From Stenopsyche tienmushanensis (Eukaryota > Arthropoda > Insecta > Trichoptera > Stenopsychidae), in assembly GCA_008973525.1 (NCBI GenBank), contig WACJ01000523.1:1426001-1490000 (forward strand): 64,000 bases of DNA, given 5' to 3'. Of the stretch, positions 36,020 through 64,000 are shown in pieces. Every line of letters begins with the position of its first letter. Position 1 is the first letter of the stretch. The notes beneath the pieces are model-generated. The model did not search any database and was not told the DNA's origin. It was given only the letters and a program-made list of their open reading frames with translations. A program made the translations under genes and the position numbers.

Positions 36020-39000
36020 TATTTAATCGATTTGACACAAATGCTTCAATAGCCATCTGACATTCCACGCAAATTCGGTCATAACATTTAAATTTTCAAC
36101 CATGTCATCATGTGACAAACGAACGCCGGTGTGTGTCTTAAGACGACAACATATCGCCATTGATCGGAATTAATTAATTTATATTGTATATATATATATA
36201 TATTTATGATGATATTTTTATACGTGCATTATTTTAAATTCGATATTTTTAAAGCGTTTAAATTGTACGCATTAATAAATTAATTAATTATATTAAATAT
36301 ATAATAAATCCGCACCCGGTGGTTGGTCGACATTTGATGAATTACGACCAAATGAGACGCTGCAAATTCAAACTTCATCGACGCGCATTGACATCTTTAG
36401 TGCGTCCAATTTGAACTTCAGCGTATAAATACGGCAACAAATCATTGTTATTCACGACAAGATATGATAAAATCGTCTTATAAATTACTGTATTTAATTT
36501 AGCGCCTTTTTTATCCATTTCAGAGCTGGAAACTGTTCATGTCGGATCCATGGAAAAAATCGTGCGTAAATATAAAAGTCGTGTTGTACCTGTTAGAGTT
36601 ACACATTTAATTTGTCGGTTAGTGTTTGTCGTTTTATCTGCGCTTTTATCAGGGCTGTCAAACCAGCTCGAACGACTGCGTACGTTGCGATCGCTCGCCG
36701 AAGCATTTAAATTCATCGAGTTGAAAGCCCCGCCTGATCCACCTTCGAGTGTTTGCTCGTCGGCTTGATTTGTTGGAGCGTCCAATTATCACATGGTCTT
36801 CTTCGCTCTGAAGACTGAGTGAACTGTCACGACGGTCCACGCCGAGGATGACTCAAAATGCAGCCGTTCGAAATTAACGATTTTATGTTAACACATTTAC
36901 GAGTCGCCAGATGCTTCGAATCTCATTTTACATAATCGATTCGTCGCCGACGTATAAAGATCCCGAGACGCTTAAGATTCATCCCGTGTAAGCTTATTCA
37001 TGAGTCGCTTTCACGACTTTCGAAAATGTGTATTTGAAACATGGCAGTTCTAAATTTGAATTATGATTTTGCGAATACATTAACGGAGTGTGCAGTACAT
37101 GAATGCACGGCGTCGCTACAGCGCGATTTGTCACCCATTGTTTTCTTCATAATGGCCTTTATGTTGCCATGGCGTAGCGAGAGGCGCGAAACTAACCGGA
37201 CAGCACGTGACCGACATTTCTTATACACATCGACGATTGCCACCAGATGAGACGCTCCACGAATTTATCGACGAGGACGTCTTCATCGAAATTCGAAAAC
37301 CTAACCTCAATTGATCGCCGAGCGCGTTTTAAACAGATACGATTCAAACTCGTATCGATAATTTATAGACTTATAAAAACGACAACGTTTTACAACATAA
37401 AAGACGCAAATACAATAATAAAATTGCAAACGATGCTCAAAAATTAAACTATAAAATAGCTTATAAACCGATCGCTCAAATTCATAAACGTCAATCAAAA
37501 TATGAGCCATAAGCGAATTTTTTTCGGCCATGTCGATAAAAATGCGTCGATAAAAAGGCATAACTTTACACTCTCATTCGGCAATAAATACATTTGAAAT
37601 TTAAATCGCATAAATTTGCGTGATAAATTTGAGAATTTTTCAACATACAGAACCCATCCGAGAACAAACAGTGAATTCGTTTCGCCGTTAAAATCTGCAT
37701 TTTCCATAATTATGTAAATATTGCCTCTTAATAAAAAAATGACCTCTAGCTTATGATTTGGTCCTGCGTATTAATACGTCATCGCCAGACGTACCGTTTA
37801 TATATTTATGCCACAGCAAGAAAAATGAAGAACTTATCTGCAATGAAAATTCGTTAATGAAGAGAGCTATCCGTCGACAGTATAGTATTTGAAGCACTGT
37901 CATGGAGTTGCTCTCTTTATGGACGAATCTACTCACATCGAAGAACATCAGAATCGAACGAAAGCGCATCCCGAATAATTTAAAATGTTTCGCCGCATGT
38001 GTCAAATAAAATTTGGCCTTAAGCAGAAAAAAATCGTCCAGCATCGTAAACCAATACGAAGCATCCGTTCGAGTGCGTGAAGTATCATTTGAACAAACAA
38101 ATACCGGTGTAATTCCACATTAGTAACCAACTGTGAAAATAAACCGTAGCGTCTGAGGCACATCTTCGACAATATTAATCAATAAGCGAAATTCCATTGA
38201 ATTTATTTCTATTTTTAGTCTGCGAAAAAGTATAGGCGAAAATAACAGATGTATAAAGTATGCACGTAAGAATAAATTGTTTTTTTTTTTTTTTTGTATA
38301 TACACAAATCAAAGTTTTATAATTTGCAATACAAACATGTTTAAAAATTCGCCAGTGTATAATCCAATCATAATCTAATGCAATATAAGTTTTGTACGAG
38401 CAAAGAATTCCAATAGTTTATGATGTATGCCGAGAGAATTAACTCATAACTCAAGCATCTTTACGTCGCTGTTGATTTGTGGTCCAATGGCAACGTTCCC
38501 CCGGCTTGATTTATGAACATTTTCATGATTTGTCGATAACGTCAAAGCATACGATTGCTTTATAACCTATTGTTAATTTTAATGGCGTTCATACAATGGC
38601 GCATTACCGGCTAGACTTTAATTATCTAGGAATTTCTTATGCAGGGAAACGTCGTTTGGATAAAATAAATCGTAGACGCGCGATAAAAGCAAATTAATAT
38701 CGACGTGTACATATTTCTTGCATTTCAGATTTGGAACCGCCTGAAAATAGGTATTGTATTTATTTGATCTTATATTTTAATATATGGAAACTTGTACGAT
38801 AATAATGTACGATTGTTGCTTTTCAGAATCGCACCGCTTTTAAAACCTCTGGCAAAGAAAACACGGGTAAAATGTGAACGCAGGTATTTTTTATCTGACG
38901 CGCCGAAGGGATCCCGACTAATTTTATATGATTCCTTATCATTCGACAAACAAAGCGGACCCGCTACAACTGCCTTATCTTATTTTCATTGTAACAGCTT

Positions 39001-61188: not shown

Positions 61189-64000
61189 TCAAAAAAGCGC
61201 ACATTTGGCACAAAGCGGTTTTCCATTTTCGACCATAAAAGATGATTGCGTCACTGGTTTGGAGCAAGACTAAAATAGATGATAAATCATTTGTTACAAT
61301 GAGCGCAGGTTCATATTTCAACAATGTTTCGAGATTATCATATTGTTTGTCTCACTTTCTATTTGTATATTTTCTAGAAGATCATCTAGACAGTAAGGTT
61401 ACGAGATCTCCTGACACCGGGGGATTTTTGTTTTCTAAATTTGCGTACCTGGTGTGTTGGGGGAATCTTAACAGTTGGTTTGTTTGGTTCAGCGTGTTTT
61501 GTCGGCCATTTTGTTCAGTCACAGTAAATTCTTCCGATGGAGAAGTCGTCGCGCGCTCCTGCCACATCTCTTCCGTGTGAGATCCGTACGGTGATCTGTT
61601 TTTTAGCTTTGCAGAACAATACCACTGCGAATATTCATCGGGAGCTCGTGGAAGTAGTGATGTGACGAGTCATTTGGTCGGAATAGTCATGACATCTATT
61701 TTTTTGGGAATGCAAGGGAGTCCTTTTGGTAAATATTATGCCCAAAGGGACTACCATCATTACAGAGACTGCCTGGGGTGTCAGCTTCATGCGTGACAAC
61801 GCCAAGCTCCACACCGCGCCAGTTTCACAAGAGCTGCTCATATCATTTGGATGGGATATTGTCACCCACCCACCCTATTCAGCCAACTTGGCGCCTTTGG
61901 GCTATCCATTTTTCACTAAATAAGTTTTTAGGTGTTGTAACCTTACTTTCTGGATGATCTTCATTAATTCATTTATACTTACTCCACAGAGGAAACAATC
62001 AGGATGCCATTTTTTACCAAAAGCTATTATTGATTTTGCATCAATTGGTTTTTTACAATTTTCACAACGGGGTGCAAAATTATTAGTATAACAAGAAGTG
62101 CAGTATGGTTCTCCATTTTTCTCCATAAAACTTAAACCAGCCAATCGTTGCTTACAATCCATGCAAACAAAATGTTCTTCGTGCCAACATACATCCAATG
62201 CCTTGATTATTCTCTGTAATAATAATGTTAAATTCATTTACTTCTGTAATTTGAATGGATTGGTCAATTGATTTGATAAATTAAATATTATAAATGAATA
62301 CTTACGCCTACAAGCGGTTCTTTACAGCTGTGACATTTGCTTGCATGAAGTTTTAAAAAGTCCATTGCACAATAAATCTTTCCATCTTTCTCATGAAAGC
62401 TTCCATCAATTGGCTTCTTGCATTCCAAACAGGCAAAATGTTCTGGATGCCACGCTTTATTCAAGGCTGTAATTATCTATAATATTCATATTCCCTATTA
62501 GAATTAAGATATTATAAGAAAGTGTTCATTTTATGGAAAGTACGACGGTGGGCTGAAAACTAACGCACACAGGCTTATAGACCGCGAACGAAATGATCTT
62601 CAGAAGTGCACCAGATGGCATGTGGAAGTATTTCCCTTAATTTGAGATTTGAGGTCGTTAGGTTCATCCTAAAGCGGAAGTATGGAGATGTGTTCAAGTG
62701 CTATGTCAAGGCAACTTCTTGAACAGCGTACTGTTATCGAATTTTTATCTGCTGAAGAAGTGACTTCCACTGATTTTCATCGTCGTTTAAAGGTTGTTTA
62801 TGTTGATGGTGCTGTTAATAGATCACAATGTAAAACGATGTGTATTAAAATTTCGTCGTGAATGAGATGAAGGCAGCTGTTAAGTCCTGCATTCAATTTT
62901 TCAGAAGAATTTTTCAGTGATGGAATGGAAAAACTTGTTACAAATTGGGAGAAATGTGTTGGCCTTAACAGTGACTATGTTGAAAAATAAATATATGATT
63001 TTGAAACTTAAGAATTGTACTTTAATATACTTTTTGGTCGATCTTGCAATTTGTTTTTTTTTTCGCGCTCTGCAAAAATGCGTGCACTAATTTTCAGCCT
63101 ACCCTCATATAATATTCATCAAGATTATGTTAAATATAATATAATACTGAATACTATTTGACCTTGCCGACTATGAGTTTATTACATCCATGGCAAATAT
63201 CGCTCTTCCTGATATATTCCTTAGCAAAGATGCTTTTGTCATCAGGCTGAAAAACAAATAGTTTGTAAAAATTATCACTCTTCGAAATGTAATATAATAT
63301 TGAATTTTTTTAATACATTTTCGGTTATGGGGTTATCACATCCATGGGAATTTTCATTCTCATTGATATCATCCTTAGGAGAGATGCTTTTATCATTAAA
63401 CTGAAAATATACAATTTGTAAAAACCATCACTCTTCGAAATATAACATAATATTGAATTATTTAATACATTTTCGGTTATGGGCTTATCACATCCATGGG
63501 AAATATCGTTCTCCTTGATATTATCTTTAGCAGAGATGCTTTTGTCATCAAACTGAAAAACAAATAGTTTGTAAAAATCATCACTCTTCGAAATGAAATA
63601 TAATATTGAATATTATATTACCTTTTCGGTTATGGGGTTATCACATCCATGGGAAATTTCGTTCTCCTTGATATTATCTTTAGCAGAGATGCTTTTGTCA
63701 TCAAACTGAAAAACAAATAGTTTGTAAAAATCTTCACTCTTCGAAATTAAATATAATATTGAATATTATTTTACCTTTTCGGTTATGGGGTTATCACATC
63801 CATGGGAAATATCGTTCTCCTTGATATCATCTTTAGCAGAGATGCTTTTGTCATCAAACTGAAAAACAAATAGTTTGTAAAAATCATCACTCTTCGAAAT
63901 GTAATATAATATTGAATTTTTTAATACATTTTCGGTAATGGGGTTATCACATCCATGGGAAATTTCGTTCTCCTTGATATTATCATTAGCAGAGATGCTT
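61189..64000 (-). CDS. Triple-LIM-domain protein, paxillin/LIM-only type (5' end outside window)
   Basis: LIM domains are double zinc fingers for protein binding, usual in focal-adhesion and actin-associated factors. Terminal exons on the minus strand: 63163-63246 (28 codons), 62306-62476 (57), 61983-62213 (77), 61189-61269 (27 with stop); all borders are GT-AG and phase 0. LIM1 runs from CHGCNKLIVGK through WHPEHFACLECKKPI to YCAMD; LIM2 from CHSCKEPLVG through WHEEHFVCMDCKQ to YCTSC; LIM3 from CENCKKPIDAK through WHPDCFLCGSCSKPV to LCAKC, ending ALF. All ligands of the three domains are present. H-x-x-E-H-F-x-C spacing is closest to paxillin-type and Drosophila/Manduca LIM-only proteins. 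Upstream, five further copies of the first 28-codon exon run to the window edge. Two mariner remnants lie in its introns. Frame is intact throughout. Confidence 0.9.
61537..61925 (+). mobile_element. Internally deleted mariner in the last intron of the LIM gene
   Basis: An ATG at 61537 opens MEKSSRAPATSLPCEIRTVI, FLALQNNTTANIHRELVEV, a mariner-type N-terminus. After a stop the sequence jumps to a middle part and then SFMRDNAKLHTAPVSQELLI with FGWDIVTHPPYSANLAPLGY (the second and third catalytic regions; the final Asp region is PLGY instead of P-S-D-Y). It is antisense to the gene and ends 60 bp from the splice donor of exon 61983-62213. Confidence 0.8.
62541..63109 (+). mobile_element. Short deleted mariner with both terminal repeats, LIM-gene intron
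   Basis: Starts TACGACGGTGGGCTGAAAAC and ends with the inverted form of TATGAGGGTAGGCTGAAAAT; about 30-bp terminal repeats are flanked by TA. Inside, SRQLLEQRTVIEFLSAEEVT and TDFHRRLKVVYVDGAVNR form the transposase N-terminus, which is joined after a deletion to a C-terminus (MEKLVTNWEKCVGLNSDYVE). The whole element is 569 bp, so more than half of a usual ~1.3-kb mariner is missing. Confidence 0.85.
63163..64000 (-). repeat. Tandem exon-intron array: at least six copies of an 84-bp coding exon
   Basis: Exons on the minus strand at 63163-63246, 63317-63400, 63468-63551, 63622-63705, 63775-63858 and 63928-64000 (cut by the window end). Spacing is 154, 151, 154, 153 and 153 bp; each complete exon is exactly 84 bp, preceded by CAG and followed by GT. 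The first is the canonical exon opening LIM1 (SDICHGCNKLIVGK). The others encode close variants of FDDKSISAKDNIKENEI followed by SHGCDNPITE(K/N), without stops. Donors alternate between AAG|GTAA (two copies) and a weaker AAT|GTAT (three copies). The introns (67-70 bp) are also near-identical, so the unit was amplified as a whole. Confidence 0.92.

Follow-up and report, generated by a model that had tools for sequence, protein, structure and literature searches.

A young, homogenised array of in-frame exons, probably descended from a disabled domain exon, in a paxillin-like gene with three LIM domains of Stenopsyche tienmushanensis

The window, i. e. the whole stretch of DNA analysed here, comprises 64,000 nucleotides of the Stenopsyche tienmushanensis genome (451 Mb in 549 contigs) and corresponds to C520:1426001-1490000. 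Its minus strand carries the exons of a LIM gene. Exon A, hereafter the LIM exon (63163-63246), has 28 codons, contains the first zinc knuckle CHGC of LIM1 and is followed by a donor of the form AAG/GTCAAA. Exon B (62306-62476, phase 0) encodes the rest of LIM1 and the start of LIM2, exon C (61983-62213, phase 0) the rest of LIM2 and most of LIM3, and exon D (61189-61269) the end of LIM3 with the stop codon. The translated exons matched Pfam family PF00412 with an E-value of 2.6e-38 in three stretches, the first of which begins at residue 18 of exon A, the first cysteine of CHGC. The closest relative of solved structure was the LIM region of paxillin isoform alpha (7qb0_A, E 5.5e-29), the best of 43 distinct sequences. 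Paxillin itself has four LIM domains and N-terminal LD motifs. Since exon D closes the gene after LIM3, the gene is a paxillin-like three-LIM gene and not paxillin. Two introns hold insertion-like stretches: one between exons A and B (62541-63109) with 53-nt inverted repeats at its ends that are 72% complementary, and one between exons C and D (61377-61962) with 33-nt inverted repeats that are 85% complementary. Both are intronic and leave the exons of the LIM gene intact.

A genome-wide search with LIM exons B to D gave 23 matches, distributed over contigs C39, C44, C82, C149, C219, C274, C327, C406, C511, C520 and C525. Three of these are the array gene itself and three belong to a paralog (72-77% identity). 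The paralogous gene (C149:88216-89160) has the same four exons, with a single LIM-start exon (FGDKSISAKEHIKMSDTCNKCNKTIGGK) in which the C-x2-C is kept, and has no array. Between the two genes, exons B and C together gave a dN/dS of 0.23, and thus the LIM gene is maintained by selection. A protein search for outside relatives returned one candidate and none at an E-value of 0.001, and no relative was found on viral contigs.

Elsewhere in the window, a microRNA precursor of the mir-46/mir-47/mir-281 family lies at 37846-37930 on the plus strand and scores 84.4 bits, where the gathering score is 44.7. It was the sole Rfam match in the window at the gathering threshold, and its family is in keeping with an animal, probably an arthropod. 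Two long open frames, also on the plus strand (690-2033 and 2057-2605), contain repeated SPLRRK..(D/E)(D/E) stretches, and Pfam gave nothing for them at 0.1. A Pfam scan of five open frames of the window was likewise without a match at 0.01, and no tRNA was found in the window.

Upstream of the LIM exon, the minus strand carries a tandem array with a period of 153 nt, and the window edge falls inside it. Within the window, Tandem Repeats Finder reported 5.4 copies with 89% matches and a score of 1292, so the array is not a product of chance. Five 84-nt copies (the LIM exon counted) are whole in the window and a sixth is cut at position 64000; their spacing is 153, 153, 152 and 154. Each of the complete copies has 28 codons in phase 0, is preceded by CAG, followed by GT and free of stops. 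The preliminary description had proposed six or more copies running past the edge and had suggested extending the contig to count them. This extension bore the proposal out, with the period at 152-154 rather than 151-154: eleven complete repeat exons, R1 (C520:1490931-1490848) to R11 (C520:1489400-1489317, minus strand), precede the LIM exon on contig C520. All eleven keep the 84-nt length, the frame and the AG and GT dinucleotides, and the array introns measure 68-70 nt each. In the extended stretch, Tandem Repeats Finder counted 11.7 copies of period 153 and also reported a higher-order period, of 460, at 93%. When the genome was searched at the DNA level with 63163-63400 as the query, at least 12 matches were obtained, all on C520; the paralog on C149 was not returned.

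Within the window, R7 is cut by the edge (63928-64000; complete at C520:1490011-1489928). R8 (63775-63858), R9 (63622-63705) and R10 (63469-63552) have 28 codons each, read SHGC at the knuckle and carry the donors AAG/GTAAAA, AAG/GTAATA and AAT/GTATTA, respectively. R11 (63317-63400) adjoins the LIM exon and is the most diverged of the eleven. Like the exons, the five array introns of the window lie on the minus strand (63859-63927, 63706-63774, 63553-63621, 63401-63468 and 63247-63316; together spanning 63247-63927). Since the 69-nt intron after R7 is stop-free, one open frame runs from R7 across this intron into R8. The introns that follow R8 and R9 contain a stop, and those that follow R10 and R11 cause a frameshift.

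The segment 63246-63163 had been taken for a plain copy of the array. It is instead the exon that starts LIM1, with the zinc-knuckle cysteine that is missing from all the others: the codon of the first knuckle cysteine of LIM1 is replaced by a serine codon (SHGC) in 11 of 11 repeats. A Pfam scan of R8 to R11 joined together found no LIM domain. Because one zinc ligand is lost in all eleven, the R exons cannot replace the LIM exon; the LIM exon is kept downstream, and LIM1 would therefore stay whole however many R exons were included. The R exons, kin of an exon that starts a domain, would at most add 28-residue non-LIM repeats before the LIM exon. The three repeat peptides for which properties were computed (R8, R9 and R11) are acidic and hydrophilic, with GRAVY values of -1.21 to -1.59 and a pI of 4.1-4.6, compared with -0.51 and 8.9 for the LIM exon peptide. 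Much of this gap arises from changes within the LIM exon itself. A strong acidic and polar shift, obtained with the LIM exon as the ancestor (joint P 0.0002-0.0007), was set aside. With an ancestor inferred from u (see below), the LIM exon, the array and the paralog, the joint P was about 0.015 and the single measures gave 0.13-0.14, and this shift was not retained either.

A further relative of these exons, u (C520:1491222-1491140, outside the window), lies upstream of R1 across 208 bases. It is 83 nt long: one base is missing, which causes a frameshift, and the second cysteine is replaced by tyrosine. Its AG and GT (donor GTAAAA) are intact. The earlier claim that every copy has 28 codons in frame, with CAG and GT and without a stop, thus holds for R1-R11 and the LIM exon and fails for u. 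Thus u is a dead sister exon, with a candidate start exon on one side and the array on the other. Past the first ~30 intron bases, u and the LIM exon are followed by similar sequence (TTTAACA...TTGATGAATAT), whereas the R units change there to the bases that precede the next exon. From this we infer the probable order of events: duplication of the exon, loss of the cysteine in one copy, and amplification of that copy. Before the amplification, the nonsynonymous to synonymous changes were 8:1 on the array stem, 10:2 on the LIM exon and 7:2 on u, with two ancestor columns ambiguous, and gave no sign of constraint. Pairwise dN/dS was 1.08 for array and u, 0.78 for u and the LIM exon, 0.51 for array and paralog, and 0.35 for the LIM exon and paralog. 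A Fisher test that pointed to positive selection in the comparison of the array with the LIM exon (P 0.035) was dropped, as it used unsound site numbers; counted dN/dS was 1.5-3.0, on few changes. A possible distant copy near C520:1500075 was also rejected, having a stop just past the match and not being found by the exon profile; its frame resembles what we take to be a transposase.

The copies are highly similar to each other. R2, R5 and R7 are identical exons, as are R3 and R4, and the eleven repeats comprise 8 distinct exons and 7 distinct introns. R11 stands apart, with 9-11 differences from the other repeats in 84 positions, compared with 0-5 differences among the other ten. Ahead of the LIM exon, 39 intron bases show 1-2 differences from those before R8-R10, and the intron start after the LIM exon shows 5-8 differences in 30-33 bases from those after R7-R11. 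An ungapped count for the acceptor half of R11 (22/39) was inflated by a one-base shift and was set aside. This pattern suggests exchange within the array with escaping ends. The preliminary description had seen here either the recent amplification or the continuing homogenisation of an expressed array. Recent amplification with homogenisation is upheld by the identical exons and the 460 period; as an argument for expression, the frame retention on which that description partly relied is weak. In sum, R1-R11 form a young, homogenised, in-frame exon array that arose from a disabled domain exon.

A candidate start exon, encoding MDYLITRSE with a GTATGT donor, was found at C520:1493225-1493199 on the minus strand. 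A diverged duplicate, MENLRRRTE, lies 13 kb away (C520:1506332-1506306). The two copies agree at 75% over 184 bases, including leader and acceptor, and then share the same 24-base intron start. In the genome search, exons of this type occurred at these two places only; the paralog locus yielded none. Strand, phase and position suggest that the candidate start exons belong to the LIM gene. The two copies could be alternative promoters of the gene. Joined to R1-R11 and the LIM exons, the candidate start exon gives a stop-free frame of 505 amino acids, or of 197 if the array is skipped; any number of R1-R11 can be spliced in phase, as had been proposed. The weak point is u, whose inclusion would end the frame at its codon 14: for the array to be read, splicing has to leave u out or transcription has to begin downstream of it. 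Directly 5' of R1 there is an open stretch of 42 codons that contains an ATG; it may permit a start downstream of u, or it may be open by chance. Scored against the consensus over nine positions, the donors of R8 and R9 reach 7 matches, those of R7, R10 and R11 reach 5, and those of the LIM exon and exons B and C reach 6. R1, R3, R4 and R6 have the R8-type donor GTAAAA, and five of the eleven (R2, R5, R7, R10 and R11) have GTATTA after a T. Some R donors are thus at least as good as that of the LIM exon and others are weaker, which makes mixed inclusion of the R exons plausible.

Retention of the frame is rejected as proof of selection, because 0.54-0.73 of neutral simulations with 13 changes (0.61-0.69 with 15 changes) kept all frames open. 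Invariant splice dinucleotides are likewise compatible with chance (P 0.32). These values favour an explanation in which the array is neutral: the repeats would be intronic duplicates that are skipped, the start exon would be joined to the LIM exon, and the open frame would be due to common descent and homogenisation. The 8:1 ratio on the stem, as expected without constraint, and the array-u dN/dS of 1.08 fit this explanation too, as do the dead sister exon, the loss of the zinc ligand in all copies and a paralog that manages without an array. We consider such a neutral origin a serious possibility, if a somewhat doubtful one. It is opposed by the way in which the copies vary. Diversity among R1-R11 was 0.025, 0.013 and 0.102 at codon positions 1, 2 and 3 and 0.082 in the introns, and positions 1 and 2 are less variable than position 3 (P 0.010) and than the introns (P 0.013). 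Variation at position 3 did not differ from that of the introns (P 0.62). Nine of the 14 variable exon columns are third positions (P 0.017; for any phase P 0.029), and 6 of 8 when R11 is left out, compared with 7 variable columns without phase (3, 2, 2) in the seven 69-nt introns. These phase tests, few in number, take columns as independent and were picked after the data had been seen. The splice sites intact in all eleven copies also speak against neutrality, as does the lack of indels in the exons, compared with 2-3 intron events counted by eye in the alignment (P 0.03-0.09). The dN/dS among the copies, which had been named earlier as a check, came out less clearly: counted by hand, there are 10 nonsynonymous changes at 69 sites and 5 synonymous changes at 15 sites, a ratio that cannot be called significantly low (P 0.09 relative to synonymous sites, P 0.08 relative to introns). 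Nor were the amino acid changes within the array unusually conservative (P 0.18-0.34). The dependence of variation on codon phase is a better argument for coding than frame retention, and a moderate one; translation of R1-R11 has about even odds.

Three further explanations seem much less probable. Frameshifted u, perhaps along with variable R exons, could tune the amount of functional mRNA by nonproductive splicing, since u retains its AG and GTAAAA and yet brings a stop at its codon 14. However, R1-R11 are all in frame and would not trigger decay, and the 7 nonsynonymous and 2 synonymous changes of u from its inferred ancestor, together with the missing base, are the pattern of a decaying exon; such a control is very unlikely. 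The equal length and phase of R exons and LIM exon would suit mutually exclusive splicing as in Dscam, with one R exon or the LIM exon per transcript varying LIM1. This is hardly to be expected with the first LIM1-knuckle cysteine absent from every repeat and with copies that are homogenised and not diversified. Clusters of the Dscam type also have competing RNA structures; the five array introns of the window, each folded singly, showed no structure beyond shuffles (z -0.75 to 1.87). That the array or its copy number stems from misassembly is the most improbable of all. Copy number can indeed be misjudged where copies are identical, as in the two groups that hold five of the exons, but copy-specific differences run throughout (8 distinct exons, 7 distinct introns), and the contig of 1,999,899 bases continues beyond both sides.

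The best explanation, in our opinion, is that R1-R11 are coding exons that are spliced in and extend the LIM protein at its N terminus, and we hold the case for it to be evenly poised. According to this explanation, a duplicated LIM1-start exon would have lost the first zinc ligand by a Cys to Ser change. Unequal exchange or conversion would then probably have multiplied the Ser copy until eleven phase-0 exons stood head to tail, separated by minimal introns. Splicing would insert the R exons, as a block or as a variable subset, after the short start exon and before the intact LIM1 exon. With its LIM domains intact, the protein would thereby gain an extension at the N terminus that is acidic and hydrophilic and up to 11 x 28 residues long, and this extension, possibly disordered, could act as a spacer of variable length or as a docking tail. 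A bolder version, which we put forward tentatively and consider rather unlikely, is an expandable, concertedly evolving coding array in which copy number and splicing set the N-terminal length of a LIM adaptor, probably varying between individuals, and in which the repeat is selected as a non-zinc sequence.

If the copies are used, the locus would show at a young stage how an exon of a structured domain becomes a repeat outside the domain, and how an array of coding exons grows and is homogenised at the same time, with exon copy number setting protein length. If they are unused, it would illustrate clearly how far an intact frame can mislead when an array is young and homogenised. The single-exon paralog and the dead sister copy u provide built-in comparisons.

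No LIM gene with an exon array was found, by title, among the literature matches listed, and a search for 'tandemly duplicated exons' with 'LIM domain' gave 0 matches, which does not prove absence from print. The Drosophila genes CG34325, CG31988, CG30178 and CG31624 probably have three LIM domains, like the array gene, and we know of no exon array in them. A table in PMC7928361 classes these four genes as LIM-Only, and as small insect LIM-only genes they resemble the array gene.

As in tandem exon duplication, R1-R11 are homologous to each other, lie side by side on the same strand of a single gene, and have symmetric phase and their own splice sites. In the PEVK region of titin, single exons code for single repeats. 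These repeats (PPAK motifs) have 26-28 residues, close to the 28 of the R exons, and are described in PMC9100103 as disordered; they are however unrelated, diversified in sequence and of known elastic role, whereas disorder of the R repeats is suggested by composition alone. The honeybee apidaecin gene, as presented in PMC3415428, has several exons that each encode one repeat of a multi-repeat product, as the R exons would. Its products are secreted antimicrobial peptides cut from a precursor, in contrast to the LIM protein that carries the R array. The exon 4 and exon 6 arrays of Dscam are likewise tandem duplicated exons of equal size with short introns in one gene; the account in PMC3236188 reports that no gene conversion was found between the duplicated exons and that one exon is chosen per array. 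The R copies differ from these in being near-identical and in having lost a residue needed by the domain. In Dscam-type arrays each exon is able to complete the same domain, and none of the eleven repeats, all without the first cysteine, could do so. We therefore regard the R1-R11 array as a variant of tandem exon duplication, unlike the arrays of the Dscam type.
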